Origin: Pararhodospirillum photometricum DSM 122
Lineage (GTDB): Bacteria; Pseudomonadota; Alphaproteobacteria; Rhodospirillales; Rhodospirillaceae
Direction of reading: 5' to 3'
Assembly (NCBI RefSeq): GCF_000284415.1
Contig: NC_017059.1
Span: 3,632,789-3,664,058, forward strand
Length of the DNA stretch: 31,270 nt
Shown here: positions 949 to 30,508 of the stretch, one piece after another
Numbering within the stretch: position 1 is the stretch's first letter
Layout of the letters: each line of letters opens with the position of its first letter
The notes under the pieces: model-generated
Database searches by the model: none
Seen by the model: the letters and a program-made list of their open reading frames with translations, nothing else
Told to the model about the DNA's origin: nothing
Translations under genes and position numbers: made by a program

Positions 949-990
949 GAGGGGTCTGGGGAGGCAAGCCTCCCCAGCCTTGCCTTTTTT
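949..990 (+). terminator. Palindromic 3'-end repeat, copy 1, terminator orientation
   Basis: CTGGGGAGGC and GCCTCCCCAG form a near-perfect stem, followed by CCTTGCC and T6. It begins 7 nt after the chemoreceptor stop codon. It is the first of about eleven copies of a dispersed element in this window. In this orientation it reads as an intrinsic terminator for the chemoreceptor gene. Confidence 0.8.
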
Positions 991-1035
991 CCTTCCGGCT
1001 CTTCCCCGACCGGTGGTCGGGAAAACCGTCGTTCC

Positions 1036-1070
1036 GGGGCGCTCGGCCAAACAAGCCGCGCCCCTTTTTT
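1036..1070 (+). terminator. Second intrinsic terminator after the chemoreceptor gene
   Basis: GGGGCGC pairs with GCGCCCC, an inner GGC pairs with GCC, and a T6 run follows. A smaller hairpin (CCCGAC, loop, GTCGGG) lies at 1005-1021 just before it. Unlike the repeat at 949-990, this structure has no other copy in the window. From here to 1467 I see no gene; the stretch holds the likely promoter and leader of the acetate cluster. Confidence 0.7.
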
Positions 1071-1416
1071 ATTTCCCGAAATTCTCGCTTTCATGGTCCC
1101 TGCCGTTGCGTCACATCGTCTTACCCCTAAGGAAGTCGCGCTCATTTTTTGTTTCTTTGTTTCCGTAACGGCACTGCACAAAATCCGTTGAGAGTTTGAT
1201 TCTTTCGCCGTGTAATTTTGCCTTTTCTTTGAGGCGCTTGGCGGCATTTGGGTCCCGGGTCGCCCCGCAGAAAGGCGCCCTCCAGGGCAAAATTCCGCTG
1301 GTGTTTCCGCGCGCGTAAGGTATCGTCTGCACGCAACCCAGCTATGACGCTGGCACAAAATTTCGGGCATCGTAGAAGGGGCAACAAGCTCCCCGCGAGG
1401 CGCCCGGGGGAACGGA

Positions 1417-1453
1417 ACAGAGTCGGACAGCAAACCGTCCGACCGACCTCTGT
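1417..1453 (+). promoter_or_regulatory. Leader hairpin abutting the yjcH ribosome binding site
   Basis: ACAGAG-TCGGAC pairs with GTCCGA and CTCTGT around the loop AGCAAACC, with a five-base bulge on the 3' side. The 3' foot ends directly before the GGGAGG Shine-Dalgarno sequence at 1454-1459. A stable stem in this place could affect ribosome loading. No regulator or ligand class is recognised. Confidence 0.4.
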
Positions 1454-1467
1454 GGGAGGCTGTAAAA

Positions 1468-3430: not shown

Positions 3431-3466
3431 AAGGCTGGGGAGGCGGGGGCCTCCCCAGACCCCTCC
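3431..3466 (-). repeat. Palindromic 3'-end repeat, copy 2, reverse orientation
   Basis: CTGGGGAGGC, loop GGGG, GCCTCCCCAG, then ACCCCTCC. It starts 13 nt after the actP stop codon but points the other way from copy 1, so no T run follows it on the plus strand and it should not end actP transcription. The adjoining CTCCA-CTCC-TGGAG (3463-3476) forms a small hairpin that overlaps the Shine-Dalgarno sequence of the next gene. Confidence 0.8.
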
Positions 3467-5295: not shown

Positions 5296-5296
5296 G

Positions 5297-8660: not shown

Positions 8661-8737
8661 GGGGCCGTAGCTCAGTTGGGAGAGCGCAGCAATCGCACTG
8701 CTGAGGTCAGGGGTTTCGATTCCCCTCGGCTCCACCA
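8661..8737 (+). tRNA. tRNA-Ala(CGC), copy 1, with one extra U in the T loop
   Basis: The cloverleaf has acceptor GGGGCCG/CGGCTCC with the alanine-identity pair G3:U70. The anticodon stem is CAGCA/TGCTG and the loop ATCGCAC, giving anticodon CGC for GCG codons. CCA is encoded. The T loop reads TTTCGATT (8 nt) where copies 2 and 3 have TTCGATT. That insertion would disturb the T-loop fold, so this copy is either damaged or carries a sequencing error in a short T run. Confidence 0.9.
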
Positions 8738-8807
8738 GGGTCCTCGCCATTGCCGCAGAGGATGGGTCAGGCTAGAGTAAGGTGTTGAGTGGTTGTTTTT
8801 CCAGGGC

Positions 8808-8883
8808 GGGGCCGTAGCTCAGTTGGGAGAGCGCAGCAATCGCACTGCTGAGGTCAGGGGTTCGATTCCCCTCGGCTCCACCA
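8808..8883 (+). tRNA. tRNA-Ala(CGC), copy 2
   Basis: 76 nt, a full cloverleaf with G3:U70, anticodon CGC, a normal 7-nt T loop and encoded CCA. It is identical to copy 3. It is 70 nt after copy 1, and the spacers share no clear similarity. Confidence 0.96.
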
Positions 8884-8916
8884 GGAAAAGCAGGCAGGCA
8901 ACGCCCACCCCTCAAA

Positions 8917-8992
8917 GGGGCCGTAGCTCAGTTGGGAGAGCGCAGCAATCGCACTGCTGAGGTCAGGGGTTCGATTCCCCTCGGCTCCACCA
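8917..8992 (+). tRNA. tRNA-Ala(CGC), copy 3
   Basis: 76 nt, identical in sequence to copy 2 and 33 nt after it, followed by a strong intrinsic terminator. The three genes are best read as one tRNA operon. Confidence 0.96.
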
Positions 8993-9321: not shown

Positions 9322-11604
9322 GTGGGGAAAAGGACGTTGGCCCGGCTCACGCCCCAGGCCGCCCCGGAAGGGGCACCCGATATGGTGGGGAGTTCCTCGG
9401 CTCTCCAACGCGTCCGATCGCTGATCGACAAGATCGCCCCGACCGATCGTCCCTTGCTCATTTTGGGAGAAACAGGCACCGGCAAGGAGGTCGTGGCCCG
9501 GCGCATCCACGCCCTGAGCGGCTATGCCGAGGGGCCGTTTGTGGATGTGAACTGCGGGGCCATCCCGGAATCCTTGGTGGAATCCGAGTTGTTTGGCCAC
9601 GTCAAAGGGGCCTTTACCGGAGCCTCGGCGTATCGCCCCGGGACCTTTTCCCAAGCGACCAAGGGGACCTTGTTTCTGGATGAAATCGGCGAGTTGCCGG
9701 TGGCGTTGCAGCCCAAGCTGCTGCGGGTTTTGGAGACCCGTTTATTTCGGCCGGTCGGATCGGCCGAGCCCTTGCACTTCGAGGGGCGGATCATCGCCGC
9801 GACTCACCGCGATCTGCGGGCCATGGTGGCCGAGGGCAGCTTTCGCGAGGATTTGTATTACCGGCTTGCCGTCTTTACCGTGGAGTTGCCCACGTTGGAG
9901 CAGCGCCGGGGCGATATTCCCGATCTAGTGCGGCATTTTGCCCTGCGCCAGCCCCGGCCCCTGAGCTTTTCCCCCGCCGCCTTGTCCTTGCTGCGCCAAC
10001 AGCCCTGGCCGGGCAACATCCGACAATTGCGCAATCTGATTGATCAGTTGGGGGTGTTGGCTGAAACGCCAGAGATTGGCTTGGCCGTCTTGGAGCCCTT
10101 CCTGGCCCATGCCCCGGAGCCCCGCCTACGCGAGGATGAGATCGCCGAGGCCCTGCTGCGCCTGCCCGGTGACGACAAGCTCCTGGCGGCGGAAAACCTG
10201 CTGATCGATCATGCCCTGGCACGGTGTGATGGCAACAAAAGCGCGGCAGCCAAGGTCCTGGGCGTGAGTCGCAAGGTCATCGAGCGCCGGCTGAAGTCTC
10301 GGGATGCTCCGCTGCAAAGAATGCGCGATCTCCTGGACGATGCCCGCTTGTTGGTGGACAGCGCCCGCTATCGCGAGGCCATCGTGACCTTGCGCCGTTG
10401 TCTGAAGCTACAGGGCGAGGGGGACGGGGAGGGCGAGGAAGAGGCCCTCTTGTTGTTTGATGTTTATCGCCTTTTGGGAATCAGTTTACGCAGTGTCAAC
10501 GGCTGGTTGTGTGCCGAGGCCCAGGACTGCTACCAGGCCGCCTTGAACCTGGGGCGTGGTGACCCTCTGGAACGGGCCCATCTCCAGTTCGGGATCTGGG
10601 GGGCGCAGCTCATGGCGCTGGATCTGGTGAAAGCCCGAGCCAGCGCCCAGGACATGATCCAGCATGCTTTGAGCCAGTCCTTGGGCGATGCCTTGGGCGA
10701 TGCGTATGTGGCTTTGGCCAATACCTTGTTTTGGCTGGGCGATGCCGAGGAAGCCTTGGCCTGTCTTGCCCGCTGCCAGCTTTTGGGCGTGGATCGCACC
10801 GAAGAACGCCTGGGCGGCCAGGGGATTGACTTGGCCAATCTTGCCCTCACCCTGGAGGGCTTGGCCGCTTTTCGTCTGGGATCCTTCGCCCAAGCCCGCA
10901 AAGCCCTGGCGATGCTGGTACGGCGCCTGGAAACTCAGCGCTTCCATGCCTTCAATCATGCCCTGACTCTTCAGGGCGCGGCGTGGTTGTCGTGTCTGTT
11001 CGAGGAACGGGAGGCTACCGGGACCCACGGGAGCGCCCTGGAAACCCTTTCGCGCGAGTATGGGTTTACATTCTATCAAGGCGTGGGTCAGATTTTCCGC
11101 GGGATTCACGAAGGCTGGGAGGGGGAGCCCGGGGTGGCCGAGGCCGTCATCCAAGAGGGCTACGATACCTTGCTGGTACGCCGAGGGGGCCGTTTGTTCC
11201 ATTCCTTTCAGGCGTGGCACCGCGCCTTAGCCTTACTTGCCGCCGGGCGGTCCCAGGAGGCCCTGGCCGCCGCTGATTTGGGTGTTGAGGTGGCCATGCA
11301 GACCCAAGACCGCGCCTATCTTGGCGAGCTTCTCGTCGTGCGAGCCCGGGCTAGGCGGGCGCTTGGCGAGGAGGAAGAGGCTTGCCAGGACCTGTACGGT
11401 GCGCTCTCCACCGCCCAGGCCCTGGGCTCGGTTGCGGCCCGGGTCGAGGCTGCCACGGCCTTGGCTCAGGTGTTGCGCGAGACCGGGCGGGCGGCGGCAG
11501 GGACCGAGCTGCTGACCCGGGCCCTGCGCGGGGTGGCCTTGTCCGAGGCGCCGCCTTTGGTGCAGCGCGCTCTTGCCCTGCTGGCGACCGACGCAGATCA
11601 CTAG
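9322..11604 (+). CDS. Sigma-54-dependent activator with C-terminal TPR-like region
   Basis: This is an enhancer-binding protein that would open sigma-54 promoters using ATP. The AAA+ domain comes almost at once: Walker A GETGTGKE (residues 49-56), the sigma-54 loop GAFTGA (96-101), Walker B LFLDE (117-121), sensor I IIAATHRDL and the arginine-finger region FREDLYYRL. A Fis-type helix-turn-helix follows at about 302-326 (NKSAAAKVLGVSRKVIERRL). There is no receiver, PAS or GAF domain in front. Instead, about 420 residues follow the HTH, made of Ala/Leu-rich helical pairs that look like TPR repeats and probably sense a signal or partner. The GTG start follows GGGAGAG by 5 nt. An ATG at 9305 in another frame is an alternative if a frameshift exists. 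A sigma-54-type promoter lies just after its stop codon. Confidence 0.9.
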   Translation: MGKRTLARLTPQAAPEGAPDMVGSSSALQRVRSLIDKIAPTDRPLLILGETGTGKEVVARRIHALSGYAEGPFVDVNCGAIPESLVESELFGHVKGAFTGASAYRPGTFSQATKGTLFLDEIGELPVALQPKLLRVLETRLFRPVGSAEPLHFEGRIIAATHRDLRAMVAEGSFREDLYYRLAVFTVELPTLEQRRGDIPDLVRHFALRQPRPLSFSPAALSLLRQQPWPGNIRQLRNLIDQLGVLAETPEIGLAVLEPFLAHAPEPRLREDEIAEALLRLPGDDKLLAAENLLIDHALARCDGNKSAAAKVLGVSRKVIERRLKSRDAPLQRMRDLLDDARLLVDSARYREAIVTLRRCLKLQGEGDGEGEEEALLLFDVYRLLGISLRSVNGWLCAEAQDCYQAALNLGRGDPLERAHLQFGIWGAQLMALDLVKARASAQDMIQHALSQSLGDALGDAYVALANTLFWLGDAEEALACLARCQLLGVDRTEERLGGQGIDLANLALTLEGLAAFRLGSFAQARKALAMLVRRLETQRFHAFNHALTLQGAAWLSCLFEEREATGTHGSALETLSREYGFTFYQGVGQIFRGIHEGWEGEPGVAEAVIQEGYDTLLVRRGGRLFHSFQAWHRALALLAAGRSQEALAAADLGVEVAMQTQDRAYLGELLVVRARARRALGEEEEACQDLYGALSTAQALGSVAARVEAATALAQVLRETGRAAAGTELLTRALRGVALSEAPPLVQRALALLATDADH

Positions 11605-11623
11605 CTCTCAAGCCCCAAAGACC

Positions 11624-11668
11624 GAGGGATCTGGGGAGGCCGTGCCCCCCAGCCTTTTCTTCTTTTTT
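11624..11668 (+). terminator. Palindromic 3'-end repeat, copy 3, terminator orientation
   Basis: GAGGGATCTGGGGAGGC, a CGT loop and GCCCCCCAG (one base missing from the right arm), then a T-rich run (CCTTTTCTTCTTTTTT). It starts 20 nt after the activator stop codon. Confidence 0.7.
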
Positions 11669-11678
11669 CTCTCCAACA

Positions 11679-11694
11679 TGGCACAGCATGTGCA
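11679..11694 (+). promoter_or_regulatory. Sigma-54 (-24/-12) promoter for the DUF917 gene
   Basis: TGGCAC-AGCAT-GTGCA matches the TGGCAC-N5-TTGCW consensus except for one base, with the invariant GG and GC at the correct 10-bp separation. The predicted transcript start is near 11705, about 60 nt before the DUF917 start codon. It stands between a sigma-54 activator gene and the likely target, which supports function. Other TGGCAC hexamers in the window lack the GC at -12. Confidence 0.65.
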
Positions 11695-12977: not shown

Positions 12978-13013
12978 AAGGCTGGAGAGGCGCCGGGCCT
13001 TCCCAGACCCCTC
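12978..13013 (-). repeat. Palindromic 3'-end repeat, copy 4, reverse orientation, imperfect
   Basis: AAGGCTGGAGAGGC, GCCGG loop, CCTTCCCAG, ACCCCTCCGG. Begins 10 nt after the DUF917 stop codon, in the orientation without a downstream T run for that gene. Confidence 0.7.
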
Positions 13014-13169: not shown

Positions 13170-13213
13170 GAGGGGTTTGGGGAGGCCGCGCCTCCCCAGC
13201 CTTTCTTTCTTTT
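13170..13213 (+). terminator. Palindromic 3'-end repeat, copy 5
   Basis: GAGGGGTTTGGGGAGGC, CGC loop, GCCTCCCC, AGCC and TTTCTTTCTTTT. It is 15 nt from the stop codon of the receptor gene on the other strand, but oriented so that its T run serves plus-strand transcription arriving from the DUF917 gene. Confidence 0.75.
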
Positions 13214-18125: not shown

Positions 18126-18551
<426 letters not shown>

Positions 18552-19923: not shown

Positions 19924-19977
19924 AACAAAGCCCTTGACGCCCTCGGGCCAACCCAGTAAAAAGCGCCCCACATCGAC

Positions 19978-20055
19978 GGCGGGTGTAGCTCAGTTGGTTA
20001 GAGCGCGTGGTTGTGGTCCATGAGGTCGTGGGTTCGAGTCCCATCTCTCGCCCCA
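19978..20055 (+). tRNA. tRNA-His(GTG)
   Basis: Anticodon stem CGTGG/CCATG with loop TTGTGGT, giving anticodon GTG. Position 73 is C and G-1 is encoded at 19978, both histidine features. CCA is encoded. D and T arms are regular. The acceptor GCGGGTG/CTCTCGC has a U-U mismatch at 6-67 and a G-U at 4-69. Confidence 0.95.
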
Positions 20056-20064
20056 AGTCATGAA

Positions 20065-20095
20065 GGCCGGGTTCTCACGGAACCCGGTCCTTTTT
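20065..20095 (+). terminator. Intrinsic terminator of tRNA-His
   Basis: GGCCGGGTTC, loop TCACG, GAACCCGGTC, then CTTTTT. A ten-bp stem with one G-U pair, beginning 10 nt after the tRNA. Confidence 0.85.
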
Positions 20096-20110
20096 CCTTT
20101 GGCGCGGAGG

Positions 20111-20755: not shown

Positions 20756-20779
20756 ACTCCAGGCCTCCGTGCAAAATCC

Positions 20780-20818
20780 GAGGGGTCTGGGGGAGGCCCG
20801 CCTCCCCAGCCCTCCTTT
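20780..20818 (+). repeat. Palindromic 3'-end repeat, copy 6
   Basis: GAGGGGTCTGGGGGAGGC, CCGCCTCCCCAGC and a short CTCCTTT. It lies 10 nt from the arsC stop codon, with its T-rich end facing that gene, so it is antiparallel to the operon and sits between arsC and acr3. Confidence 0.75.
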
Positions 20819-20827
20819 AGGGACCGC

Positions 20828-21343
20828 TCAAGCCGGCGGCTCCCCCTCCCGAACCGCACCAATCGCATCCAAGCGACTTTGCAAAGACAAACGGTCCAAC
20901 GCAGGAATCGGCAGGGCCAGGAACAAGCTCAGGCGCGCCTGAAGCGTGCGCATGACCTCGCCCAAAAAGGCATTCTTCTCGGCCACCGGACCGACAAACG
21001 CCGCCGGATCGGGCAACGACCAGTGGGCGGTTACCGGCTGCCCAGGCCACACCGGGCACACCTCGCCGGCCGCGCTGTCGCAGACGGTGATGACGAAATC
21101 CAAGGCGGGGCCGTGCGGGGCCGCAAACTCGTCCCAGGATTTCGAACGCAGGCCCGAGGTCGGGAAACCGGTTTGAGTGAGCAGCGCCAACACCTGGGGA
21201 TCGATGGCCCCCTTGGGATGACTGCCGGCACTCAAGGCCCGAAACCGGCCGGCGCCCTCACGATTGAGAAGGCTCTCGGCCAGAATGCTTCGCGCCGAGT
21301 TCCCAGTGCACAAAAACAAGACCGTATAGATTTTATCAGCCAT
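20828..21343 (-). CDS. arsC: Arsenate reductase ArsC, low-molecular-weight phosphatase type
   Basis: A 171-residue cytoplasmic enzyme reducing arsenate to arsenite. The phosphate-binding loop near the N-terminus is LFLCTGNSARS with nucleophile C12 and R18 (C-x5-R). LRSKSWDEFA and FVITVCDSAAGEVCPVWPG carry the further cysteines of the thioredoxin- or glutaredoxin-linked LMW-PTPase group, and HWSLPDPAA contains the general-acid Asp. It is somewhat longer than the usual 130-145 residues, with an extended C-terminus. The ATG overlaps the arsR stop by 8 nt, so the two are translationally coupled. The arsenite made here would normally leave through Acr3, which is truncated just downstream. Confidence 0.93.
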   Translation of the reverse strand: MADKIYTVLFLCTGNSARSILAESLLNREGAGRFRALSAGSHPKGAIDPQVLALLTQTGFPTSGLRSKSWDEFAAPHGPALDFVITVCDSAAGEVCPVWPGQPVTAHWSLPDPAAFVGPVAEKNAFLGEVMRTLQARLSLFLALPIPALDRLSLQSRLDAIGAVREGEPPA

Positions 21344-21758
21344 GGCATTCCCCGTGGGATGGGTTGGCAACGGCTTGAGCCTCCGGGGGCAGGGCGGCCC
21401 GCCCCAGCGCACACACGCTGGCCACCGGGGTGGCCGTCACCTGGTCCAGGATCCGGGCATCGGCGCTCACGGTGGGATCGTCGGCCAGGCTGGTGGCCAC
21501 CAGCGCCAAGAAGGCGCGGGCATAGGGGTTGAAGGCCCGCTCGGCCAGCCGGTAGTAGACCCACTTGCCGTCCCGGCGCTGCTGCACCAGACCGGCCCCC
21601 TTGAGGGCGCTCAGATGTTTGGAGACGGTGCCCGGGGCGAGGTCCAGCACCGCGGTGATCTGGCACACGCACAGCTCGCCGCCTTCCAGCAGCTTCAACA
21701 GCCGCACCCGGGTCGGGTCAGCCACCGCCTTGGCAACGATTTCGAAGATCTCAAGCAT
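21336..21758 (-). CDS. arsR: ArsR-family arsenite-responsive repressor
   Basis: A 140-residue winged-helix repressor. Start placed at MLEIFEIVAKAVADPTRVRLL; the open frame upstream crosses the operator and is not coding. The metal site ELCVCQI (C30, C32) in helix alpha-3 matches the As(III) motif ELCVCDL of type ArsR. The recognition helix region reads LAPGTVSKHLSALKGAGLVQQRRDGKWVYYRL. The protein is a little longer than the minimal ArsR, with a C-terminal helical extension. First gene of arsR-arsC-acr3, with a 24-bp inverted repeat 17 bp before its start codon as the expected self-operator. Confidence 0.95.
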   Translation of the reverse strand: MLEIFEIVAKAVADPTRVRLLKLLEGGELCVCQITAVLDLAPGTVSKHLSALKGAGLVQQRRDGKWVYYRLAERAFNPYARAFLALVATSLADDPTVSADARILDQVTATPVASVCALGRAALPPEAQAVANPSHGECHG

Positions 21759-21774
21759 GCACCCAACACTGCCA

Positions 21775-21798
21775 TCATTTTCCCGAATGAGAAAATGA
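21775..21798. promoter_or_regulatory. ArsR operator, inverted repeat
   Basis: TCATTTTC-N8-GAAAATGA is a perfect 8-bp inverted repeat, AT-rich against a GC-rich background, immediately upstream of arsR. ArsR repressors bind such imperfect dyads overlapping their own promoter. Arsenite would release the repressor and induce arsR-arsC-acr3. Confidence 0.7.
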
Positions 21799-21852
21799 TA
21801 AACCCATGACACCCCCCAGGCAAGAGACAGCACGCCCTCCCTCCCCAGGAAC

Positions 21853-21896
21853 GGAGGGGCCTGGGGAGGCCCGCCGCCCCAGCCTTGCCTGCTTTT
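21853..21896 (+). repeat. Palindromic 3'-end repeat, copy 7
   Basis: GGAGGGGCCTGGGGAGGC, then CCGCCGCCCCAGCC and TTGCCTGCTTTT. The last bases overlap the stop codon of the methyltransferase gene on the other strand. CCCTCC-CCAGGAAC-GGAGGG just to the left forms the second, smaller hairpin seen beside several copies. Confidence 0.75.
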
Positions 21897-22632
21897 AGGG
21901 CACCCCCCGCGACGACCCCCGCAACGGCGAGGCCAGGGAAAGGCGCACCGGACGGGCAGGGGTGGGGCGCAGGACGGGAGCGGCAATTTCCTTCATACTC
22001 TCCGTCACCACCACGCCGCCAAACCCACGACACCAGCGCCGACCCAAGCGCTCGGCCGTCGCCGCCGAGCCGAGCAGGGCCCGCCCGGTCACGGGAGGCA
22101 GGAACAAGGCCGTGGAGGAATGAATCGGAGTAAACAGGCTGTCATGCAGCAGCTTTTCCAGTTGCCCCTGGGAAAACGGCCGGCCGCTGGCAAAGGGCGA
22201 GTGCTCCAGGCGGGCCCATAGGCCGGTGCGGTTGGGAACCACCACAACGAGGCGCCCGTCGTCGGTCAGGACCCGCCAGCATTCCCGCAGGACCTCGCGC
22301 AAGGCGCTGGTGTATTCTAGGGCGTGCACCAACAACAGCCGATCCACCGAGCGATCGGGCAGGGGCAACAGGCGCTCGTCCACCACCGAGGCGAGGCAAG
22401 GCTGATGGGCAGGCCAGCGTCGCGCACCCATGCCGGCGGGCATCAAGGCGATCACGCGCTCGGCCTCGGCCTGGAACGGACGCAAAAAGGGCGGGGCGTA
22501 GCCCAAACCGGCGACGCGGCAGCCCCGGACATCGGGCCACAGGCCACGCAAGGCCTGACCGATCAGCCGCCGGGCCATCCGCCCCTGCCGGCTTGCATAA
22601 AAGCTGCCCAGGTCCATCACGTCGGTCCACAT
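21895..22632 (-). CDS. Class I SAM-dependent methyltransferase
   Basis: A 245-residue cytoplasmic methyltransferase. Start taken at MWTDVMDLGSFYASRQGRMARR, the point where family-like sequence begins. Motif I is degenerate: RVAGLGYAPPFLRPF in place of the usual Gly-rich E/DxGxGxG. Motif II region: LPLPDRSVDRLLLVHALEYT. Motif III: LRECWRVLTDDGRLVVVVPNRTGLWARLE. This arrangement, including the weak motif I, is typical of a methyltransferase group found in alphaproteobacteria next to and divergent from gloB, as here. The substrate is unknown to me. The divergence region of 118 bp contains the gloB ribosome binding site but no operator that I can recognise. Confidence 0.85.
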   Translation of the reverse strand: MWTDVMDLGSFYASRQGRMARRLIGQALRGLWPDVRGCRVAGLGYAPPFLRPFQAEAERVIALMPAGMGARRWPAHQPCLASVVDERLLPLPDRSVDRLLLVHALEYTSALREVLRECWRVLTDDGRLVVVVPNRTGLWARLEHSPFASGRPFSQGQLEKLLHDSLFTPIHSSTALFLPPVTGRALLGSAATAERLGRRWCRGFGGVVVTESMKEIAAPVLRPTPARPVRLSLASPLRGSSRGVP

Positions 22633-22750
22633 GGGCCGAGTATAACAGGTCCGGCGCGTGCTTGCACAAGACCACGTCGCTCCGGCATCATCCCGAGCGA
22701 GGAGCCGCCCGATCCGGGGACGGCCCGGCGCTCGCCTGGAGGACCGTGTC

Positions 22751-23522
22751 TTGGAGACCCTGGACATCGCCATCATTCCCTTGCGCGCCGACAATTATGC
22801 CTACTTGCTGCGGTGCCGGGCCACCGGCCAGGGCGCGGTCATCGATCCCGGGGCGGGGGCGCCGGTGCTGGCCCACGCCCGAGCGCTGGGCTGGCCTTTG
22901 CATCAGATCCTGCTCACCCACCACCACGCGGATCATACCGATGGCGTGGAGGAAATCCACGACACGACGGAGTGCGCCGTGCTGGGGGCGGCGCTGGATC
23001 GGGCCCGCCTGCCACCCCTGACCCACGGCTTGGCCGATGGCGACCGGGTGCACGTCGGCGCGGTCGAGGGGGTGGCTCTGGCGACCCCGGGCCATACCCA
23101 CGGGCATCTGGCCTTCCACTTCCCCGCCGCGGGGGTGGTGTTTACCGGGGATTGCCTGTTCACCATGGGCTGCGGCCGGGTGTTCGAGGGCACGGCGGCG
23201 CAGATGTGGGCCTCCCTGGCCCGGCTGCGCGCCCTGGATCCCGATACTTTGGTGTATTGCGGGCACGACTATGCCGAGGGCAATGTGCGCTTTGCCCTCG
23301 CCTTGGAGCCCGCCTCGCCGGCGCTCAACGCCCATGCCGCCGACCTCAAGGCACGCCGCACCCGAGGCCAGCCCTCGGTGCCTTCCCGCCTCGCCGACGA
23401 GCGCGCCCTCAATCCTTTTTTTGCGCGCCGATGATCCGGTTTTGCTGCGCGCCCTGGGGTTGGCTGGCGCCGACCCTGTGACCGTGTTTGCCACTGTCCG
23501 TCACCGCAAGGATCACTTCTGA
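22751..23522 (+). CDS. gloB: Hydroxyacylglutathione hydrolase (glyoxalase II), frameshifted near its end
   Basis: A metallo-beta-lactamase-fold enzyme that hydrolyses S-lactoylglutathione to lactate and glutathione, completing methylglyoxal detoxification. The TTG start is supported by GGAGG 8 nt before it and gives METLDIAIIPLRADNYAYLL. The binuclear metal motif THHHADHTDG is at residues 56-65. TPGHTHGHL and FTGDCLFTMGCGRVFEG supply further ligands, and YCGHDYAEGN binds glutathione. The frame stops at 23434 after LNPFFARR. The family C-terminus (LRADDPVLLRALGLAGADP, then VFATVRHRKDHF) follows in another frame to the TGA at 23520-23522. Dropping one T from the T7 run 23414-23420 joins them. 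As written, the protein lacks its last 30 or so residues; I suspect a homopolymer error. Confidence 0.9.
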
Positions 23523-23523
23523 C

Positions 23524-24147
23524 ATGTCCGAGCCCCGTTTGCGCCTGCGCTACTCCCCGACCTCGCCGTTTGTCCGCAAGGTCATGGTGTTCGCCCACGA
23601 AACCGGCCTGATCGACCGGATCGAGCTTCTACCCACCGATGTCTGGCACCCCGAAACCGATGTCCGACGCGACACGCCCTTGGGCAAGGTCCCGGCCCTG
23701 ATCATGCCCGATGGCTTGGTGGTGGCCGAGAGCACCCTGATTTGCGACACCCTCGACCACCTGCACACCGGACCGCGCCTGTTTCCCGAGGGCGAGGGCC
23801 GGGTGGCGGCCCTGCGCTGGCTGGCCCTGGGCGACGGCATCCTGACGGCGTGCGTGACCCGCATCATCGAGGGCCGCTACCGCGCTGCCGACGCCCAGCA
23901 AGCGTGGTGGCTGGACCGCCAGATTACCTCCATTCAGGCCACCCTCGACGTCCTGGAAGCCGAGGCCGACACCTTGGCGGCGGCGCCGTTCTCGGTCGGC
24001 CCCCTGACCATCGCGGTGGCGCTCTCCTACCTCAGCTTCCGCTATTCCGGGGACGCGTGGCCGGACACCCGCCCCGGCTTGGCCGCGTGGCATGCCGAGG
24101 TCCAAACCCGCCCCTCGATGCGCGCCACCGAACCCCCCAGCGCCTAA
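23524..24147 (+). CDS. Glutathione S-transferase family protein
   Basis: A 207-residue soluble GST. The thioredoxin-like N-terminal domain runs to about residue 80 with RYSPTSPFVRKVMVFAHETG (Ser in the active-site region), the cis-Pro motif GKVPAL and ESTLICDTLD for glutathione gamma-glutamyl binding. The all-helical C-terminal domain includes RWLALGDGILTACVTRIIEG and PLTIAVALSYLSFRY. The ATG is one base after the repaired gloB stop codon, so the two form an operon for glutathione-linked detoxification. Substrate not determinable. A copy of the dispersed repeat follows the stop by 16 nt. Confidence 0.92.
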   Translation: MSEPRLRLRYSPTSPFVRKVMVFAHETGLIDRIELLPTDVWHPETDVRRDTPLGKVPALIMPDGLVVAESTLICDTLDHLHTGPRLFPEGEGRVAALRWLALGDGILTACVTRIIEGRYRAADAQQAWWLDRQITSIQATLDVLEAEADTLAAAPFSVGPLTIAVALSYLSFRYSGDAWPDTRPGLAAWHAEVQTRPSMRATEPPSA

Positions 24148-24162
24148 CCCCCTCCTGGAATC

Positions 24163-24203
24163 GAGGGGTCTGGGGAGGCCACGCCTCCCCAGCCTTCCCT
24201 TTT
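24163..24203 (+). terminator. Palindromic 3'-end repeat, copy 8, terminator orientation
   Basis: GAGGGGTCTGGGGAGGC, CA loop, CGCCTCCCCAGCC and TTCCCTTTT. Preceded by CCCCTC-CTGGAATC-GAGGGG, the smaller hairpin shared by several copies. Its T run is interrupted, so termination would be moderate. The remaining gap to 24495 holds the phaZ promoter and leader and no gene. Confidence 0.75.
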
Positions 24204-24354
24204 CCCTCCCTCCCCCCCGCCGAGTCGCCGCGCATTTCGTGCGCCGGAAAGGCCCAACGCCCCTTTCCCCCTTTAATTTGCGCACCACAATACCTATTCT
24301 CTCCCCCCGGCACGGCTCTCCCGCCCTCTTTCTGACGTCGGCGTGGGTTTCCCC

Positions 24355-24382
24355 TTGCGTTGGCACCGCCGAAAGATAAGAT
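24355..24382 (+). promoter_or_regulatory. Possible sigma-70 promoter of phaZ
   Basis: TTGCGT, a 16-bp spacer and TAAGAT, 114 bp before the phaZ start codon, in a locally AT-richer stretch. Confidence 0.4.
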
Positions 24383-24495
24383 CTTTTCAAAACAGGGAGG
24401 TTTCACGCACTTTTGTGTCGCGAAGCCGGACGACAGAGCTCGCCAACCGGGCCACGCCACACTTCCTCGCCCAAGCCGAGTACCGGGAGACGCGA

Positions 24496-25860
24496 ATGCT
24501 TTATGACCTTCACGAAATGCAACATGCGGCCCTGACGCCCTGGCGCTTCATGGCCCACACCATGCACGGGCTGTACACCAACCCATGGCTCCCCGCGTCG
24601 TACACCCGGGTCGGGCGGCAGATTGCGGCCGGTGCCGCCTTGTTCGAGCGCATGACGCGGCGCTATGGCAAACCGCGCTTTGGGTTCGATCACATTGAGG
24701 TCAACGGGCACCGCACGTGGGTCGAGGAAGTGACGGTGTATGATCTGCCGTTTTGCGATCTCGTGCATTTCAAGCGGGGCCTTGAGGCGCCGGGCCAGCC
24801 GCGGGTGCTGGTGGTGGCGCCGATGTCGGGGCATTACGCGACCTTGCTGCGTGGCACGGTGGAGGCGTTGCTGCCCGATCACGACATTTACATCACCGAC
24901 TGGGTCAACGCCCGTGAGGTGCCGCCGGACGAAGGGCGCTTCGACTTTGATACCTATGTCAACTATGTGCGCACCTTCCTGACGGTCCTGGGCCCCGGCA
25001 CCCACATTCTGGCGGTGTGTCAGCCCAGTGTGCCGGTGCTGGCCGCCGTTTCACTGATGGCCGAGGACAACGACCCGTGCCGGCCGGCGTCCATGGTGCT
25101 GATGGGCGGCCCCATCGACACCCGAGTCAACCCGACCGAGGTCAACCGCTTCGCCGACAGCCACGATATGGAGTGGTTCAGCAAGAACCTCATTCACACC
25201 GTGCCGGGCCAGTATCTGGGGCGGGGACGCGAGGTGTATCCGGGCTTTCTCCAGTTGTCGGGCTTCATGGCCATGAACATGGACCGCCATGTCAACGCCC
25301 ACCTGGATTATTTCAACCACTTGGTCGAAGGCGACGGCGATAGCGCCGATCAGCACCGGACCTTCTACGACGAATATCTGTCGGTCATGGATCTGTCCGC
25401 CGACTTTTTCCTGGAAACGGTCGAGCGTATCTTCAAGAACCACGAGTTGGCCGAAGGCAAGCTGGTGGTGGACAACCGCCGCGTCAATCCCGGCGCCATC
25501 ACCGATGTCTTCCTGATGACCGTTGAAGGCGAACGCGACGACATTACCGGCCCCGGCCAAACCAGCGCCGCCCACGATCTGTGCGCCAACCTGCCGCCGT
25601 CCTTGCGTCAGCACCATCTTCAGCCCAAAGTAGGCCACTACGGTATTTTCAATGGGCGCCGCTGGCGCGAGGACATTCTGCCCCATGTGCGCAAATTTAT
25701 TATCGAAGCGGATTTCGCGGCGGCGGGCCGCGTCCTTCCCCCCGCTGCCGCTGGCTCGCACGGCCACGCCGAGGTTCTGGGAGGTCAAACGCCTCACGGA
25801 GATGACGGAAACGGAGTGGGAGAGTTTGTGCGACGGGTGTGGGAAGTGCTGCTTGCATAA
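24496..25860 (+). CDS. phaZ: Intracellular polyhydroxybutyrate depolymerase
   Basis: An alpha/beta-hydrolase that mobilises stored PHB granules. The ATG follows GGGAG by about 6 nt and begins MLYDLHEMQHAALTPWRFMA, the conserved N-terminus of intracellular PhaZ. RVLVVAPMSGHYATLLRGTV and DIYITDWVNAREVP are family signatures. The nucleophile elbow is replaced by ILAVCQPSVPVLAA, where Cys takes the place of Ser as in the Ralstonia-type enzymes. The catalytic His is in KVGHYGIFNGRRWR near the C-terminus. The family usually ends some ten residues after that segment (about 410 residues). Here the frame continues about 50 further residues of Gly-rich sequence that overlaps the next gene out of frame, so the natural stop codon appears lost or shifted. 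The enzyme core is complete. Confidence 0.93.
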   Translation: MLYDLHEMQHAALTPWRFMAHTMHGLYTNPWLPASYTRVGRQIAAGAALFERMTRRYGKPRFGFDHIEVNGHRTWVEEVTVYDLPFCDLVHFKRGLEAPGQPRVLVVAPMSGHYATLLRGTVEALLPDHDIYITDWVNAREVPPDEGRFDFDTYVNYVRTFLTVLGPGTHILAVCQPSVPVLAAVSLMAEDNDPCRPASMVLMGGPIDTRVNPTEVNRFADSHDMEWFSKNLIHTVPGQYLGRGREVYPGFLQLSGFMAMNMDRHVNAHLDYFNHLVEGDGDSADQHRTFYDEYLSVMDLSADFFLETVERIFKNHELAEGKLVVDNRRVNPGAITDVFLMTVEGERDDITGPGQTSAAHDLCANLPPSLRQHHLQPKVGHYGIFNGRRWREDILPHVRKFIIEADFAAAGRVLPPAAAGSHGHAEVLGGQTPHGDDGNGVGEFVRRVWEVLLA

Positions 25861-26200
25861 ACTCCAGGAAGAAGACACGGGCCACATTCACTATACCAAT
25901 GTGGCCTGTGAACTCCTGGACCTTGCCTCTTGCCAGTGCGCGGACTACGTCAAACGCTGGGACACGGTCCCTGACTGCGTCAAGTTGACCCCCCGGCTCC
26001 TGCACCGCCTCGCCTGGATGCCCGAGACCTGCGCCTATCGCCTGCTAGCCCGTGGCGAGCCCCTACCGCCTTGGCATCCCCTGGAAACCGGCGACCCAGA
26101 AAGCGTCCACCGCGCCGGCATGAGCGCCCGCGGCCGCGCCGTCAGCGAACTCGACGCTGGCCCCCTGGAAGACCACATCGTCGAGTGGAGCGACCTTTAA
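25802..26200 (+). CDS. YcgN-type UPF0260 cysteine-cluster protein, start uncertain
   Basis: A small soluble protein with the family motif CDGCGKCCLHK (cysteines likely binding metal or an Fe-S cluster), TNVACELLDLASCQCADY, VPDCVKLTP and CAYRLLARGEPLPPWHPL. These match UPF0260/YcgN from end to end. The function of the family is unknown. The ATG used gives MTETEWESLCDG. However, the conserved family start (FWEVKRLTEMTETEW) is encoded just upstream in the same frame from about 25775, with no ATG, GTG or TTG close by; the next ATGs (25685, 25652) lie deep inside phaZ. The true start therefore seems to be missing or to overlap phaZ. It ends 8 nt before a copy of the dispersed repeat. Confidence 0.88.
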   Translation: MTETEWESLCDGCGKCCLHKLQEEDTGHIHYTNVACELLDLASCQCADYVKRWDTVPDCVKLTPRLLHRLAWMPETCAYRLLARGEPLPPWHPLETGDPESVHRAGMSARGRAVSELDAGPLEDHIVEWSDL

Positions 26201-26207
26201 AAGAATC

Positions 26208-26250
26208 GAGGGGTCTGGGGAGGCCGCGCCTCCCCAGTCTTCTTGTTTTT
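26208..26250 (+). terminator. Palindromic 3'-end repeat, copy 9, serving the plus-strand gene
   Basis: GAGGGGTCTGGGGAGGC, CGC loop, GCCTCCCCAG and TCTTCTTGTTTTT, 8 nt after the stop codon of the YcgN-type gene. A good intrinsic terminator, directly joined head to head with copy 10. Confidence 0.85.
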
Positions 26251-26289
26251 AAAAAGGCTGGGGAGGCGCGGCCTCCCCAGACCCCTCGA
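26251..26289 (-). terminator. Palindromic 3'-end repeat, copy 10, serving the minus-strand gene
   Basis: Read on the minus strand: GAGGGGTCTGGGGAGGC, CGC loop, GCCTCCCCAGCC and TTTTTAAAAA. It begins 5 nt after the fliN-like stop codon. With copy 9 it makes an 82-bp near-perfect inverted repeat that ends two convergent genes. Confidence 0.85.
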
Positions 26290-26293
26290 GTGC

Positions 26294-26578
26294 TTAGTCG
26301 CGGGGCTTTTGGGCGACCGAGCGGACCAATTCGGTGAAGGTCACGCCGATTTTGTCGCCATCGGTGATGATGACCTCGCCCCGGGCGATGAGAACATCGT
26401 TGGCGTAGACCTCGACGGGCTCGTTGATCTTCTGCTCCAGTTCAACGACGGCGCCACGGCCCAGTTTAAGGAGCTGGTGAACCCGCAGCACGGCCTTGCC
26501 GAGCACCACAGAGATTTCCACGGGAACGGAGTAGACCGCTTCCTTGGGCAGGCGCTTGTCGTCTTGATCGTCGGCCAT
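26294..26578 (-). CDS. fliN: FliN-like flagellar motor switch protein
   Basis: A 94-residue protein that is almost entirely the SpoA (FliN/SpaO C-terminal) domain: VYSVPVEISVVLGKAVLRVHQLLKLGRGAVVELEQ, then INEPVEVYANDVLIARGEVI and IGVTFTELV. In the flagellar C-ring this domain forms the lower ring with FliM and sets rotation direction and export-apparatus docking. The length fits the short FliN of alphaproteobacteria. It is not among other flagellar genes: upstream on the same strand, 56 nt away, is the yejF-like ABC gene, downstream a terminator. It could be read from the yej operon or its own promoter. A stand-alone paralogue is possible. Confidence 0.88.
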   Translation of the reverse strand: MADDQDDKRLPKEAVYSVPVEISVVLGKAVLRVHQLLKLGRGAVVELEQKINEPVEVYANDVLIARGEVIITDGDKIGVTFTELVRSVAQKPRD

Positions 26579-26634
26579 TGCTCGATCCCGTCTTGGGAAG
26601 GACTCGTCTTCGAGGGCATCATGCCAGCCCCGCG

Positions 26635-28266
26635 TTAAATTTTCATCCCTTCCCGCACACTCGTCGCAAGATCAGGATCAAGAGCGGCCTGAAGGAGTGC
26701 TTGGGTATAGGGGTGGGCAGGCCGGGTGAAGAGGGTTTCGGCGGGGCCGGCCTCGACGACTTGGCCGTTTTTCATCACCATGATCTCGGAGGCCAGGGCT
26801 CGCACCACCCGAAGATCATGGCTGATGAAGACATAGGCCAGCTTGTGCCGGTCCTGAAGGGCGCGCAACAGGTCCACGATCTGGGCCTGGACGGTGACAT
26901 CCAGGGCGCTGGTCGGCTCGTCGAGGATGATCAGCGACGGCGTGAGGGCGAGGGCGCGGGCGATCGAAACGCGCTGGCGCTGGCCGCCGGAAAACTCGTG
27001 GGGATAGCGGTCCTGGGCCTCGGGATCGAGTCCCACTTCTTGCAGCGCCTGGGAAACGCGGGCCCGCACCTCGGCCGGCGTGCGGGCAAGGCCGTGGACC
27101 ATCAGCCCCTCACCGACGATCTCGCCAATCGACAAGCGGGGCGACAGCGCCCCAAACGGATCTTGAAACACGATTTGCATGTGCCGGCGCACGGGGCGCA
27201 AGGCGCGGGCCGACAGCGTTTCCAGCGACCGCCCCAGAAACACGAGCCGCCCCTGGGCCGCGACCAGACGCAGTACGGCCAGCCCCAAGGTGGTCTTGCC
27301 GCTGCCGCTTTCGCCGACCACGCCCACGGTCTGGCCGGCCCGGACCTGGAACGACACGCCATCGACGGCACGCACCCAGGCCCGGGGGCGCCCGAACAGG
27401 CCGCCCTTGACCGGGAAGTGGACTTTGAGATCGTGGGCCTCCAGCACCACCGGGGCCGAGGCGTCGGGCGGCGGCGGCAGGCCCTTGGGGCGACTGGCCA
27501 ACAGGGTTCGGGTGTAGGGGGCCTGGGGCCGGGCAAAGACCTCGGCGGTGGTGCCGGTTTCGACGATTGCCCCGTCCTTCATCACCGCCACCCGGTCGGC
27601 GAGCCGGCGGACCAGCCCCAGGTCGTGGGTAATGAACAACAGCCCCATGGTGAAGCGCCGGCGCAGGTCGTCGAGCAAGGCCAGGATCTGCGCTTGGATG
27701 GTGACATCAAGGGCGGTGGTTGGTTCGTCGGCAATGAGCAAGGCGGGATCGTTGGCCAAGGCCATGGCGATCATCACCCGCTGGCGCTGCCCCCCCGACA
27801 ACTCGTGGGGCAGGGCAGAGAGGCGGGTCTCCAGGGCCTCCAGACCGACAAGGTGGAGCAACTCGGCGACGCGCGTGCGCAGCGCCGCCCCGCTCAGGCC
27901 CTTATGGAGGGTCAGGACCTCGCCAATCTGCCGCCCGATGCCGTGCAGCGGGTTCAGCGAGGTCATGGGCTCTTGAAAAATCATGGCGGCCCGGTCGCCG
28001 CGAATCTGCTGCAAGCGCGGTTCGGAGGCCGTGAGAAGGTTTTCGCCCTCCAGCCAGACGGCGCCTTGGGTCCGGGCCTGGGGCGGCAGGAGGCCCAGCA
28101 GCGACAAGGCGCTCACCGACTTGCCCGAGCCGCTTTCGCCGACCAGGGCCAGGGTTTCGCCGCGCGCGACGCTGAAGGAGACGTCGCGCACCGCCGCCAC
28201 CGAGGACACGCCGGTCTCGAAGGACACCGACAGGTTTTCGACGCGCAGGAGGGGGGCGTCGCTCAT
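26635..28266 (-). CDS. yejF: Peptide ABC transporter, fused dual ATPase (YejF-like)
   Basis: A 543-residue cytoplasmic protein with two ABC ATPase domains. The first has Walker A GESGSGKS (residues 43-50), signature LSGGQRQRV and LLIADEPTTALD. The second has GESGSGKTTLGLA, FSGGQRQRV and LIILDEPTSALD. Each is followed by the oligopeptide-type C-terminal segment (APYTRTLL, HPYTQALL). Start at ATG 6 nt after GGAGG. It overlaps the yejE stop by 4 nt (ATGA), so expression is coupled. YejABEF imports peptides such as microcin C in enterobacteria; the natural substrate in this organism is not known. Confidence 0.94.
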   Translation of the reverse strand: MSDAPLLRVENLSVSFETGVSSVAAVRDVSFSVARGETLALVGESGSGKSVSALSLLGLLPPQARTQGAVWLEGENLLTASEPRLQQIRGDRAAMIFQEPMTSLNPLHGIGRQIGEVLTLHKGLSGAALRTRVAELLHLVGLEALETRLSALPHELSGGQRQRVMIAMALANDPALLIADEPTTALDVTIQAQILALLDDLRRRFTMGLLFITHDLGLVRRLADRVAVMKDGAIVETGTTAEVFARPQAPYTRTLLASRPKGLPPPPDASAPVVLEAHDLKVHFPVKGGLFGRPRAWVRAVDGVSFQVRAGQTVGVVGESGSGKTTLGLAVLRLVAAQGRLVFLGRSLETLSARALRPVRRHMQIVFQDPFGALSPRLSIGEIVGEGLMVHGLARTPAEVRARVSQALQEVGLDPEAQDRYPHEFSGGQRQRVSIARALALTPSLIILDEPTSALDVTVQAQIVDLLRALQDRHKLAYVFISHDLRVVRALASEIMVMKNGQVVEAGPAETLFTRPAHPYTQALLQAALDPDLATSVREGMKI

Positions 28267-29309
28267 CGCCGGCCTCCCTGGCGCGGGTTGAAGGCATCGC
28301 GCACCGCCTCGCCGATAAACACCAGCAAGGTCAGCAGGCTGGCCAGCACGATAAAACCGGTGAGGCCCAGCCAAGGCGCTTGCAAGTTCTCCTTGCCGGC
28401 GCGCAGCAGTTCGCCCAAAGAAGGAGCGCCGGGCGGCATGCCGAGACCGAGAAAATCAAGGGCGGTCAGGGCGGTCACCGAACCGGAGAGCAAGAAGGGA
28501 GCAAAGGTCAAGGTGGCGACCATGGCGTTGGGCAAAACGTGGCGCAGCACGATGCGGGTGTTGGAGAGGCCGAGCGCCCGGGCGGCGCGGACGTAATCGA
28601 AATTGCGCGTGCGCAAGACCTCGGCACGCACCAGCCCGACCAGCGAGGTCCAGGAAAACAGCAACAGCACCAGCAACAAGGTCCAAAAGCCGGGCTGGAT
28701 CAGGCTGGCGACGATGATCAGCACGAACAGTTGCGGTAGCCCGCCCCAGATCTCGAGAAAGCGCTGGCCCAGGAGGTCGATCAGGCCGCCGAAATAGCCC
28801 TGCACGGCGCCGGCCACCACCCCAACGGCCGACGAGGTGATGGTCAGCATCAGGCCGAACAGAACCGACAAGCGAAAGCCATAGAGCAGGCGGGCAAAGA
28901 CATCGCGGCCCTGGTCGTCGGTCCCCAGCGGGTTTTCCCAACTGGGCGGGGAGGGGAAGGGAGTGCTGGTATCGCGGTTGACGGTCTGGGCGCTGTAGCG
29001 CACCAAGGGCCAGACGATCCAACCCTTGGCCTCGATGGCCTCGCGGACAAAGGAATCGCGGTAATCGGCGGGGGTGGGGAACAGGCCGCCGAAGGTCGTC
29101 TCGGGATAATCGCGCACCACCGGCAGATAAAAGGCGCCGTCGTAGCGCACCAGCAACGGCCGATCGTTGGCAATCAACTCGGCGCCCAGGCTGAGGCCGA
29201 ACAGGGCCAGGAACATCCACAAGGACACCACACCCCGCCGGTTGGCGCGAAAAACGGCCAGCCGGCGCTGGGCCAGGGGCGAGAGGGGCGGCAAACGAAG
29301 ACGGCGCAC
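28263..29309 (-). CDS. yejE: Peptide ABC transporter permease (YejE-like)
   Basis: A 348-residue inner-membrane permease of the DppC/YejE type. First membrane helix near residues 28-45 (LWMFLALFGLSLGAELIAN), a long periplasmic loop with NPLGTDDQGRDVFARLLYG, then about five helices. The EAA loop that docks to the ATPase is DYVRAARALGLSNTRIVLRHVLPNA. The GTG start is one base after the yejB stop with GGGAG 8 nt before it; a TTG further upstream would overlap yejB by 41 nt and is less likely. Confidence 0.93.
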   Translation of the reverse strand: MRRLRLPPLSPLAQRRLAVFRANRRGVVSLWMFLALFGLSLGAELIANDRPLLVRYDGAFYLPVVRDYPETTFGGLFPTPADYRDSFVREAIEAKGWIVWPLVRYSAQTVNRDTSTPFPSPPSWENPLGTDDQGRDVFARLLYGFRLSVLFGLMLTITSSAVGVVAGAVQGYFGGLIDLLGQRFLEIWGGLPQLFVLIIVASLIQPGFWTLLLVLLLFSWTSLVGLVRAEVLRTRNFDYVRAARALGLSNTRIVLRHVLPNAMVATLTFAPFLLSGSVTALTALDFLGLGMPPGAPSLGELLRAGKENLQAPWLGLTGFIVLASLLTLLVFIGEAVRDAFNPRQGGRR

Positions 29310-29310
29310 G

Positions 29311-30417
29311 TCAGGTCTCCCGGCTCGCGAAATCAATCCGCGGATCGACAAGGTGGTAGGTCAGGTCGCTGATGAGGGCCAGGACCAGGCCGATCAGGCT
29401 GAAGAGATAGAGGGTGCCGAACATCACCGGATAGTCGCGGCGCATGGTGCTCTCAAAGCCAAGCAGCCCCAGGCCATCGAGACTGAAGATGACTTCAATC
29501 AGGACCGAACCGGTGAACAGCATCGACACCAAGGCGGCGGGAAAGCCGGCGATGACCAGGAGCATGGCATTGCGAAACACGTGGCGGCGCAGGATCTTGC
29601 CTTCACTCAAGCCCTTGGCCCGGGCTGTCACCACGTACTGTTTGTGGATTTCGTCGAGAAAACTGTTCTTGGTCAGCAAGGTGAGACTGGCGAAGCCGCC
29701 GATGACCATGGCGGTGACCGGCAACACCATGTGCCAGAGGTAATCAATCACCCGCTCGGGCCAGGACAAGGTGTGCCAATCGCTGGAGACCAGCCCTTGC
29801 AAGGGGAACCAATTCAGGTACTGCCCCCCGGCGAAAACGACCACCAGCAGCACGGCAAACAAAAAGGCCGGAACGGCATAGCCGATGATAATGGCCCAAC
29901 TGGACAGAATGTCGAACCGCGAGCCATCGCGCACCGCCTTGAAGATCCCCAAAGGAATGGAGACCACATAAATGATCAGGGTGCTCCACAACCCAAGCGA
30001 CAAGGAAACCGGGAGCTTCTCCAACACCAGATCCAAAACGGGCCGTCCGCGAAAGAAGGACTCGCCGAGATCAAAGGTCGCATAATCGGCCACCATGCGC
30101 ACAAAACGCTCGGGCGCCGGCCGATCGAAGTGGAACTGTTCTTCCAAACGCTTGATATAGGCCGGATCAAGCCCCCGAGCCCCGCGATAGAGGCTCTCGC
30201 CGCCCCGGGTCGGATCGGAGCGCACGGGGCCAATCGCCTCGCCCTGCGCCTCGCCGGAAAAGCGCCCGGTGGCCGACCCGGCCGTTCCGCGCATCTCGGC
30301 CATCACCTGCTCGATGGGGCCGCCCGGGGCGAACTGCACGATCACGAAGTTGACCAGGATGATCCCGAACAAGGTCACCGGGATCAACAAAAGCCGGCGC
30401 AGCAAATAAGCGCTCAT
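29311..30417 (-). CDS. yejB: Peptide ABC transporter permease (YejB-like)
   Basis: A 368-residue inner-membrane permease of the DppB/YejB type, first gene of yejBEF. It starts [34 protein letters not shown], the usual first helix. The large periplasmic insert (about residues 50-120, including [18 protein letters not shown]) is typical of YejB. The EAA loop is [25 protein letters not shown]. The usual yejA substrate-binding gene is not between this gene and its upstream neighbour. What lies 101 bp upstream instead is the 3' end of an LpoA-like gene and a copy of the dispersed repeat, so the binding protein must be encoded elsewhere. Confidence 0.94.
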
Positions 30418-30470
30418 GACAGACCCGCGTGTCGGGAAAAGAAACATCGGAGGACCTCGGCCCCCCGGAC

Positions 30471-30508
30471 CCCAGGGGGCCGGGGAGGCAAGCCCCCCAG
30501 CCTTCCTC
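30471..30508 (+). repeat. Palindromic 3'-end repeat, copy 11, degenerate
   Basis: CCCAGGGGGCCGGGGAGGC, AA loop, GCCCCCCAGCC and TTCC. It lies 11 nt from the stop codon of the minus-strand LpoA-like gene and in the opposite orientation to it, between that gene and yejB. Confidence 0.6.

Follow-up and report, generated by a model that had tools for sequence, protein, structure and literature searches.

A stop-adjacent palindromic repeat of REP/REPIN-like structure, indifferent to orientation, in Pararhodospirillum photometricum DSM 122

The DNA analyzed here, which we call the window, comprises bases 3,632,789-3,664,058 (31,270 nucleotides) of the single-contig, 3,876,289-bp chromosome of Pararhodospirillum photometricum DSM 122. 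A small palindromic element recurs in it, in either orientation, beside the stop codons of genes. An earlier model-made annotation based on the letters alone (the sequence-only reading) had reported about eleven copies, and all eleven are present, none more than 24 nt from a stop codon. Five point in the terminator direction: 949..981 (plus strand), 6 nt past the stop of a gene ending at 942; 11624..11656 (plus), 19 nt past a stop at 11604; 24163..24196 (plus), 15 nt past a stop at 24147; and the two units of a tail-to-tail pair, both with the loop CGC, of which the left (26208..26241, plus) lies 7 nt past the stop of a CxxCxxCC gene at 25652-26200 and the right (26254..26287, minus) 6 nt from the stop, at 26294, of a minus-strand FliN-like gene. 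The 7-nt distance depends on the open reading frame at 25652-26200, with its CxxCxxCC domain, which the gene caller missed. The other six are reversed: 3431..3465 (minus), 12 nt past the stop of an SSF symporter gene (3418) and followed by the start of a DUF294/CBS gene at 3487; 12978..13013 (minus), 9 nt past a stop at 12968; 13170..13203 (plus), 24 nt from the stop (13228) of its nearest gene, a minus-strand TonB receptor gene; 20780..20813 (plus), 14 nt from the stop (20828) of a minus-strand low-molecular-weight phosphatase gene; 21854..21886 (plus), 8 nt from the stop (21895) of a minus-strand methyltransferase gene; and a diverged copy at 30473..30504 (plus), 14 nt from the stop (30519) of a minus-strand periplasmic-binding-protein gene. 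The 5:6 split in orientation had been counted correctly. Two of the reversed copies share the convergent gap at 12978-13203, between an S-Me-THD-like gene and the TonB-dependent receptor gene, where they face opposite ways, 156 nt apart, one at each stop. The arm GTCTGGGGAGGC, with two mismatches at most, matches the window 25 times, against 7.0 ± 2.8 (maximum 14) in shuffled sequence, and no Rfam family matched at the element copies.

The element is abundant well beyond the window. Eighty stretches of 20 kb, together with the window, gave a genome sample of 1,631,270 bases (42% of the chromosome), in which a copy was called where at least 25 of 31 positions agreed with GAGGGGTCTGGGGAGGC/GCCTCCCCAGCCTT and 0-8 nt separated the arms. 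By this rule there are 398 copies in the sample, compared with 9 in the reversed-sequence control, which extrapolates to about 946 genome-wide; one of the 398 lies too close to a stretch end, and counts made copy by copy therefore use 397. The exact pattern CTGGGGAGGN{2,14}CCTCCCCAG has 609 matches in the whole genome, 84 in a related genome (G020), seven in the congener (G001) and none in the 58 others searched. In the first 431 kb sampled, the commonest 11-mers are pieces of the arms, which is not so in the congener.

A profile of 108 copies begins with a weak head, roughly CC..AGGAA and some 11 nt long, and continues with the tag GAGGGGT, a stem arm CTGGGGAGGC, a nearly free loop of 2-3 nt, the second arm GCCTCCCCAG, CCTT and a T-rich tail; such a unit would measure some 45-50 nt. 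The arms are about 95% conserved, the loops are variable, and where both sides of a stem pair have changed, pairing is retained in 21 of 27 cases. Mutual information over the 397 copies is highest, among stem pairs, for L8-R10, with L9-R9 also marked; some adjacent unpaired columns score equally, and these probably reflect subfamilies. A pairing of tag with tail was considered and rejected: a consensus RNA fold joins GGAGGG to CCUUCC, yet across the 397 copies those columns do not covary. On the upstream side, an exact CCCAGG accompanies 32 of the 299 copies that stand alone (solos), where 4.2 ± 2.0 are expected. The sequence-only reading had also described a left-hand CCCTC hairpin on several copies; CCCTC does occur above chance, but as a minority trait, present in the 30 nt before 43 of the 299 solos (20.6 ± 4.2 in shuffles).

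How are these copies placed with respect to genes? Genes were called with a purpose-written, simple codon-usage model, and their starts are therefore approximate; the gap statistics omit five copies at stretch edges and 13 within called genes. In gaps between co-directional (tandem) genes, 136 of 212 copies lie no more than 25 nt from the upstream stop, whereas uniform placement in the same gaps gives 52.6 ± 5.5. The excess persists with only strongly supported neighbours (90 of 137, against 37.0 ± 4.6) and among tandem solos (116 of 165, against 46.2 ± 5.1). The median distance to the stop in tandem gaps is 15-18.5 nt, and that to the nearest stop in convergent gaps is 6 nt, the same holding for both orientations; taking tandem and convergent copies together, 187 of 324 are less than 15 nt from a stop. 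Density per kb, in gaps of at least 45 nt, falls from 2.79 in convergent through 1.50 in tandem to 0.81 in divergent gaps. Orientation, by comparison, is close to evenly divided: 102 tandem copies point the same way as their genes and 110 the opposite way (78:87 for tandem solos), and of 112 convergent copies 57 face as a terminator of the nearest gene would. The sequence-only reading had offered two ways in which it might fail, through a lack of enrichment near stops or through strictly terminator-like orientation outside the window, and it survives both. Copies of both orientations adjoin the upstream stop, so a simple terminator role does not account for them. The companion statement, that every copy is near a stop and none inside a gene, holds for the window but not for the genome, where 13 of 397 copies are inside called genes and another 55 are in divergent gaps. 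We dropped an apparent shortage of forward copies less than 25 nt before the next start, which had p = 0.007 in the first half of the data, 1.0 in the second and 0.055 pooled.

Close pairs of copies are exclusively inverted. Among pairs less than 60 nt apart, 36 are head-to-head (HH), 13 tail-to-tail (TT) and none head-to-tail (HT); at 300-4000 nt, with bins summed, the counts of 78, 88 and 136 come close to the 1:1:2 expected at random. The HH spacers have preferred lengths: 20-30 nt in 16 of the 36 and 39-41 nt in 15, the remaining five being shorter. The 15 spacers of 39-41 nt align as a single related, asymmetric sequence (mean pair score 10.9, against -4.5 ± 0.4 in shuffles), and they do so after removal of 7 nt from each end (7.6, against -2.5 ± 0.3). 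Units in HH doublets are more uniform than solos, at 0.949 compared with 0.887 ± 0.010 in size-matched solo sets. Within pairs the loops are identical in 32 of 49 cases, where shuffled partners give 8.7 on average and 20 at most, which suggests template switching or conversion inside the palindrome. Doublets are also spread more evenly over intergenic DNA: divergent gaps, 28% of that DNA, hold 12 of 36 doublets but 31 of 287 solos (p = 0.0008). Doublets in tandem gaps keep close to stops as well, 14 of 18 having their nearer unit no more than 25 nt away; a nineteenth was left off the distance list, one of its units being in a called gene.

Evidence for the gain of copies comes from comparison with relatives. 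At one locus (L019) a doublet parts a gene from its neighbour, which we take to be prfA from how its start reads, whereas in the congener (L045) the two genes overlap at ATGA. In 21 strict reciprocal-best gene pairs (more than 50% identity, none at a stretch edge), an element follows the P. photometricum gene in six and the congener gene in none; one further congener gene bears a copy, and its counterpart runs off the stretch. The junction of window copy 3431 has no element in P. oryzae and an ordinary-looking terminator in two Haematospirillum genomes, and that of copy 30473 has no element in the congener.

REPs (repetitive extragenic palindromes) are commonly thought to depend on RAYT transposases, whose family PF01797 (Y1/RAYT) has no match in this genome. 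We consider that the element is best read, at a probability of roughly two in three, as a REP/REPIN-like, non-autonomous palindrome that was spread as an HH doublet by a non-Y1 activity and has persisted behind stop codons. The doublet signature (inversion only, set spacings, a related spacer, greater uniformity and a more even intergenic distribution) is that of REPINs, and from it we infer past spread as a doublet. The replicative unit would then probably be the inverted HH doublet, mobilized by an enzyme other than a Y1 transposase encoded in the present-day genome, and solos would be derivatives of doublets. Mobility itself is suggested by the doublet structure and the single filled site. 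Copies would persist behind stops because a strong hairpin there spares genes and promoters, and solos may concentrate there either because a copy does least harm at that spot or because its hairpin is of use. In the latter case a copy may form an mRNA 3' end, functioning as an intrinsic terminator if the T-rich tail is downstream or, in either orientation, as an exonuclease-blocking hairpin. The sequence-only reading had proposed a mobile REP/MITE-like element (MITE, miniature inverted-repeat transposable element) and a search for a RAYT-like transposase; the dispersed REP-like palindrome, the bias for 3' ends and the freedom of orientation stand, and the RAYT link does not.

Several observations weigh against this interpretation. 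Besides the absence of PF01797, there is just one convincing filled site, the other flanks being too diverged for empty sites to be read. Solos (299) outnumber pairs (49) by about six to one, and the idea that solos are doublets with a decayed partner fared weakly: inverted remnants scoring at least 18 lie on the head side of 65 of 296 solos, compared with 54 in the same-orientation control and 30 on the tail side. Highly conserved arms with variable loops are not predicted for a young mobile family without selection or conversion. Finally, ordinary duplication may be a way in which some copies increase, since each arm of a two-copy inverted duplication (L096, 1146-2881 and 4032-5379; 98-99% identical) contains an element.

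Other duplicated sequence in the sample bears on the element in different ways. A TT pair lies in each of two long duplicated segments (L098, 5164-5303; L075, 17314-17455) that are 97-100% identical (97% in the flanks of the pair), and it stands directly ahead of a promoter-like stretch; these segments are possibly rRNA-operon leaders. The arms are the same in both segments and the loops differ (CT/AA versus CGC/CGC), and therefore loops can turn over faster than arms. A near-identical, multi-copy segment of about 890 bp resembling an insertion sequence (IS) occurs at L116 5763-6649, with pieces in L126, L130, L134 and L108; an element adjoins the L108 copy only. We rejected descent of the element as a MITE of a resident IS, for this IS-like segment, among at least 41 repeats longer than 150 bp listed in the sample, lacks it. 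Elsewhere in the window (8661-8992, plus strand) lies a tandem trio of near-identical tRNA-Ala(CGC) genes, the first with an extra T in its T-arm region; two of the three also score as tmRNA in Rfam, right at the cut-off.

Four other explanations deserve weighing. First, the element could be a hairpin acting at the mRNA 3' end or on translation, no more than about 15 nt from the stop and in both orientations, maintained by selection as has been considered for E. coli REPs. The tight stop distances in both orientations are what it would predict, as are free loops between conserved arms and the retention of pairing in most double-changed stem pairs; the covariation of L8-R10 and L9-R9 points the same way, though with unpaired neighbour columns as high. 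A sign of selection acting on the transcribed RNA strand appeared in the first 831 kb, where changes in one arm preserved G-U pairing on that strand 18:5 in same-oriented and 6:12 in opposite copies (p = 0.005), but not in the later 800 kb (17:7 versus 19:10, p = 0.77; pooled p = 0.053); the effect being gone in held-out data, we dropped that strand-specific reading. Moreover, tagged hairpins in three related genomes, described below, lack tight stop adjacency. We regard this explanation as unlikely overall, although it deserves to be taken seriously.

Second, the copies might be homogenized intrinsic terminators and nothing more. They do combine a hairpin with a T-rich tail beside stops; a run of four T residues follows 53 of 102 forward tandem copies and 37 of 110 reverse ones (p = 0.008 overall; p = 0.037 in the first half of the data and 0.15, not significant, in the second), and a consensus scan of window positions 11500-31270 finds four of its nine copies (13170, 24163, 26208 and 26254). 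Use of forward copies as terminators is thus plausible from their sequence. As a full account, however, the idea is improbable: it does not accommodate the even division of orientation in tandem and convergent gaps, a primary sequence that ordinary terminators do not have in common, or the copies between divergent genes.

Third, the element could be a DNA structure, namely an intrastrand triplex motif like BoxC/PIT/TM_ECO of E. coli. In the scheme of classes I-IV set out in the accessible part of PMC4666352 (Holder et al. 2015), the tract order GAGGGG-TCT-GGGGAG-GCNNGC-CTCCCC corresponds to class I, in which a third strand is followed by a purine and then a pyrimidine tract. That text counts R. 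photometricum DSM 122 among the genomes whose motifs exceed 500 and consist almost entirely of G and C, and it ties local genome instability to the E. coli motifs. The same portion of that paper also reports that the E. coli motifs have no promoter or terminator activity and form no stable triplex in vivo. In our data, third-strand changes are not associated with stem changes (L1/L15, p = 0.42; L2/L14, p = 1), and the base preceding GGGG in two related genomes (G016 and G064) does not track the stem. We think the triplex explanation is of low probability. Fourth, a DNA uptake sequence, forming terminators wherever two copies are inverted, would explain a conserved, very abundant 10-12-mer paired at gene ends, but it is very improbable, and as a single-arm signal refuted, because lone arms are nearly absent outside elements (in the first 431 kb, exact TCTGGGGAGGC occurs 64 times inside elements and nowhere else, and CTGGGGAGGC 163 times inside, never in other coding and four times in other intergenic DNA).

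The preferred reading of a REP/REPIN-like palindrome spread by a non-Y1 activity raises the matter of relatives of the element in the family. We scored 73 family genomes with GGGGTCYGGGGN{3,22}CCCCRG, both strands summed, and called those with at least 20 matches element-rich. Nine qualify: P. photometricum (G000) with 629 (reversed control, 50), G020 with 353, G016 with 193, G064 with 66, G066 with 43, G018 with 40, G065 with 33, G014 with 29 and the congener with 27; outside the family, each of 288 genomes drawn from the class has five matches at most. Y1 transposases are present in one of the nine (G018) and in 28 of the other 64 genomes, data points that are not independent, since many of the 28 belong to genus g19.

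The tag is tested by a survey of hairpins that presumes no motif. In this survey, of noncoding perfect hairpins (600 kb in P. photometricum, with genes called throughout by the P. photometricum codon model), the top 4-mer before the stem is GGGT in G020 and G016 and ties with CCCG in G064; in P. photometricum it comes second (75, versus 82 for AAGG, which flanks the same element on its other side). The stems begin CTGGGG or CCGGGG, and a GGGGT-CYGGGG motif marks hairpins in four Rhodospirillaceae genomes. Among tagged matches, found with a pattern that fixes the tag and so cannot itself test it, the Y/R positions remain complementary (C-G or T-A) in 21 of 22 in G016, 25 of 26 in G064 and 39 of 49 in G020. 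Inner stems and 3' flanks of these hairpins are specific to each of the three genomes, and the hairpins do not sit tightly against stops. Called genes contain 11 of the 25 matches in G064 and five of the 45 in G020, evidence against the family being purely intergenic in those genomes, provided the gene calls are correct. G016 also carries (L140-L149) a longer, uniform element of about 60 nt, with an A/T-rich lead, GGGGTCYGGGGCC-loop-GGCCCCRG and then CGAGGTRTGGAGCAGC, possibly a sister family, and in G020 (L063-L074) two related tagged hairpins occur, often some 100 nt apart and each with a second hairpin after it. A wider proposition, which we hold tentatively and give somewhat less than an even chance, is that a GGGGT-tagged REP-like class, a third beside GTAG and CGTC, is restricted among the genomes searched to a few Rhodospirillaceae genera, has or had a non-RAYT mover, and, having multiplied in Pararhodospirillum, now furnishes many gene 3' ends there with its approximately 950 copies, whose pairs would be kept alike by template switching or conversion within the palindrome.

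An open-licence literature search found no description of the repeat family among the papers it listed, and the main texts of PMC12306157 and PMC13155455 mention neither Rhodospirill- names nor photometricum. The earlier claim that the family is undescribed holds to that extent; it is tempered by the 2015 triplex survey, which, in the part accessible, names the strain as rich in fitting G/C motifs without describing a repeat. What is new is a REP/REPIN-like structure without RAYT or the tags of described families, bound to stops and indifferent to orientation. With forward and reverse copies behind many genes of one genome, it should allow roles in termination, RNA protection and translation to be separated, and its great abundance in one species and sparseness in the congener offer a system for finding the mobilizing agent.

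Among known systems, the E. coli BoxC/PIT/TM_ECO motifs (BoxC is listed with DUS-containing families, those bearing DNA uptake sequences, in the accessible text of PMC2267715) are likewise G/C-rich, intergenic and without strand bias, with some inverted pairs and a triplex-fitting pattern. They differ, on the available text of PMC4666352, in belonging to class II rather than class I and in numbering 23 in MG1655 rather than about 950; tight stop adjacency is seen here, and covariation here does not support a triplex. E. coli REPs near stops likewise form a hairpin immediately 3' of the open reading frame, and the portion of PMC12306157 available cites ribosome stalling at REPs less than 16 nt from a stop. 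There, 446 of 4,072 REPs lie within 15 nt of a stop, compared with the 187 of 324 tandem and convergent copies less than 15 nt away here.

The closest likeness is to REP/BIME sequences and REPINs of Pseudomonas and E. coli, which, in the accessible part of PMC3116915, are hundreds of intergenic palindromes with nearly all doublets inverted, preferred spacings, a less conserved spacer and doublets more uniform than singlets. The present element shares the high copy number, the extragenic palindrome, the non-randomly spaced inverted pairs and the more conserved doublets. It differs in the absence of a RAYT, in its tag, the conserved profile reading GAGGGGTC rather than GTAG, and in the predominance of solos, where the singlet:doublet ratio in that account is below 2 in 17 of 20 REP classes; its stop adjacency is strong, whereas doublets there are randomly spread over extragenic space. 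Of the GTAG and CGTC REPs defined in the available text of PMC3733652, the CGTC class, mostly alphaproteobacterial, resembles the element in a stem near 8-10 bp, a short loop, an unpaired conserved end tag, a predominance of HH dimers and the lack of an associated transposase. The differences are that CGTC is not found in the 108-copy profile, where GGGGT precedes a CYGGGG stem, that the loop is shorter, and that TT pairs are not rare (13 of 49). CGTC-tagged REPs have so far been an exception without a mover, and GGGGT would be a second tag class without a transposase.

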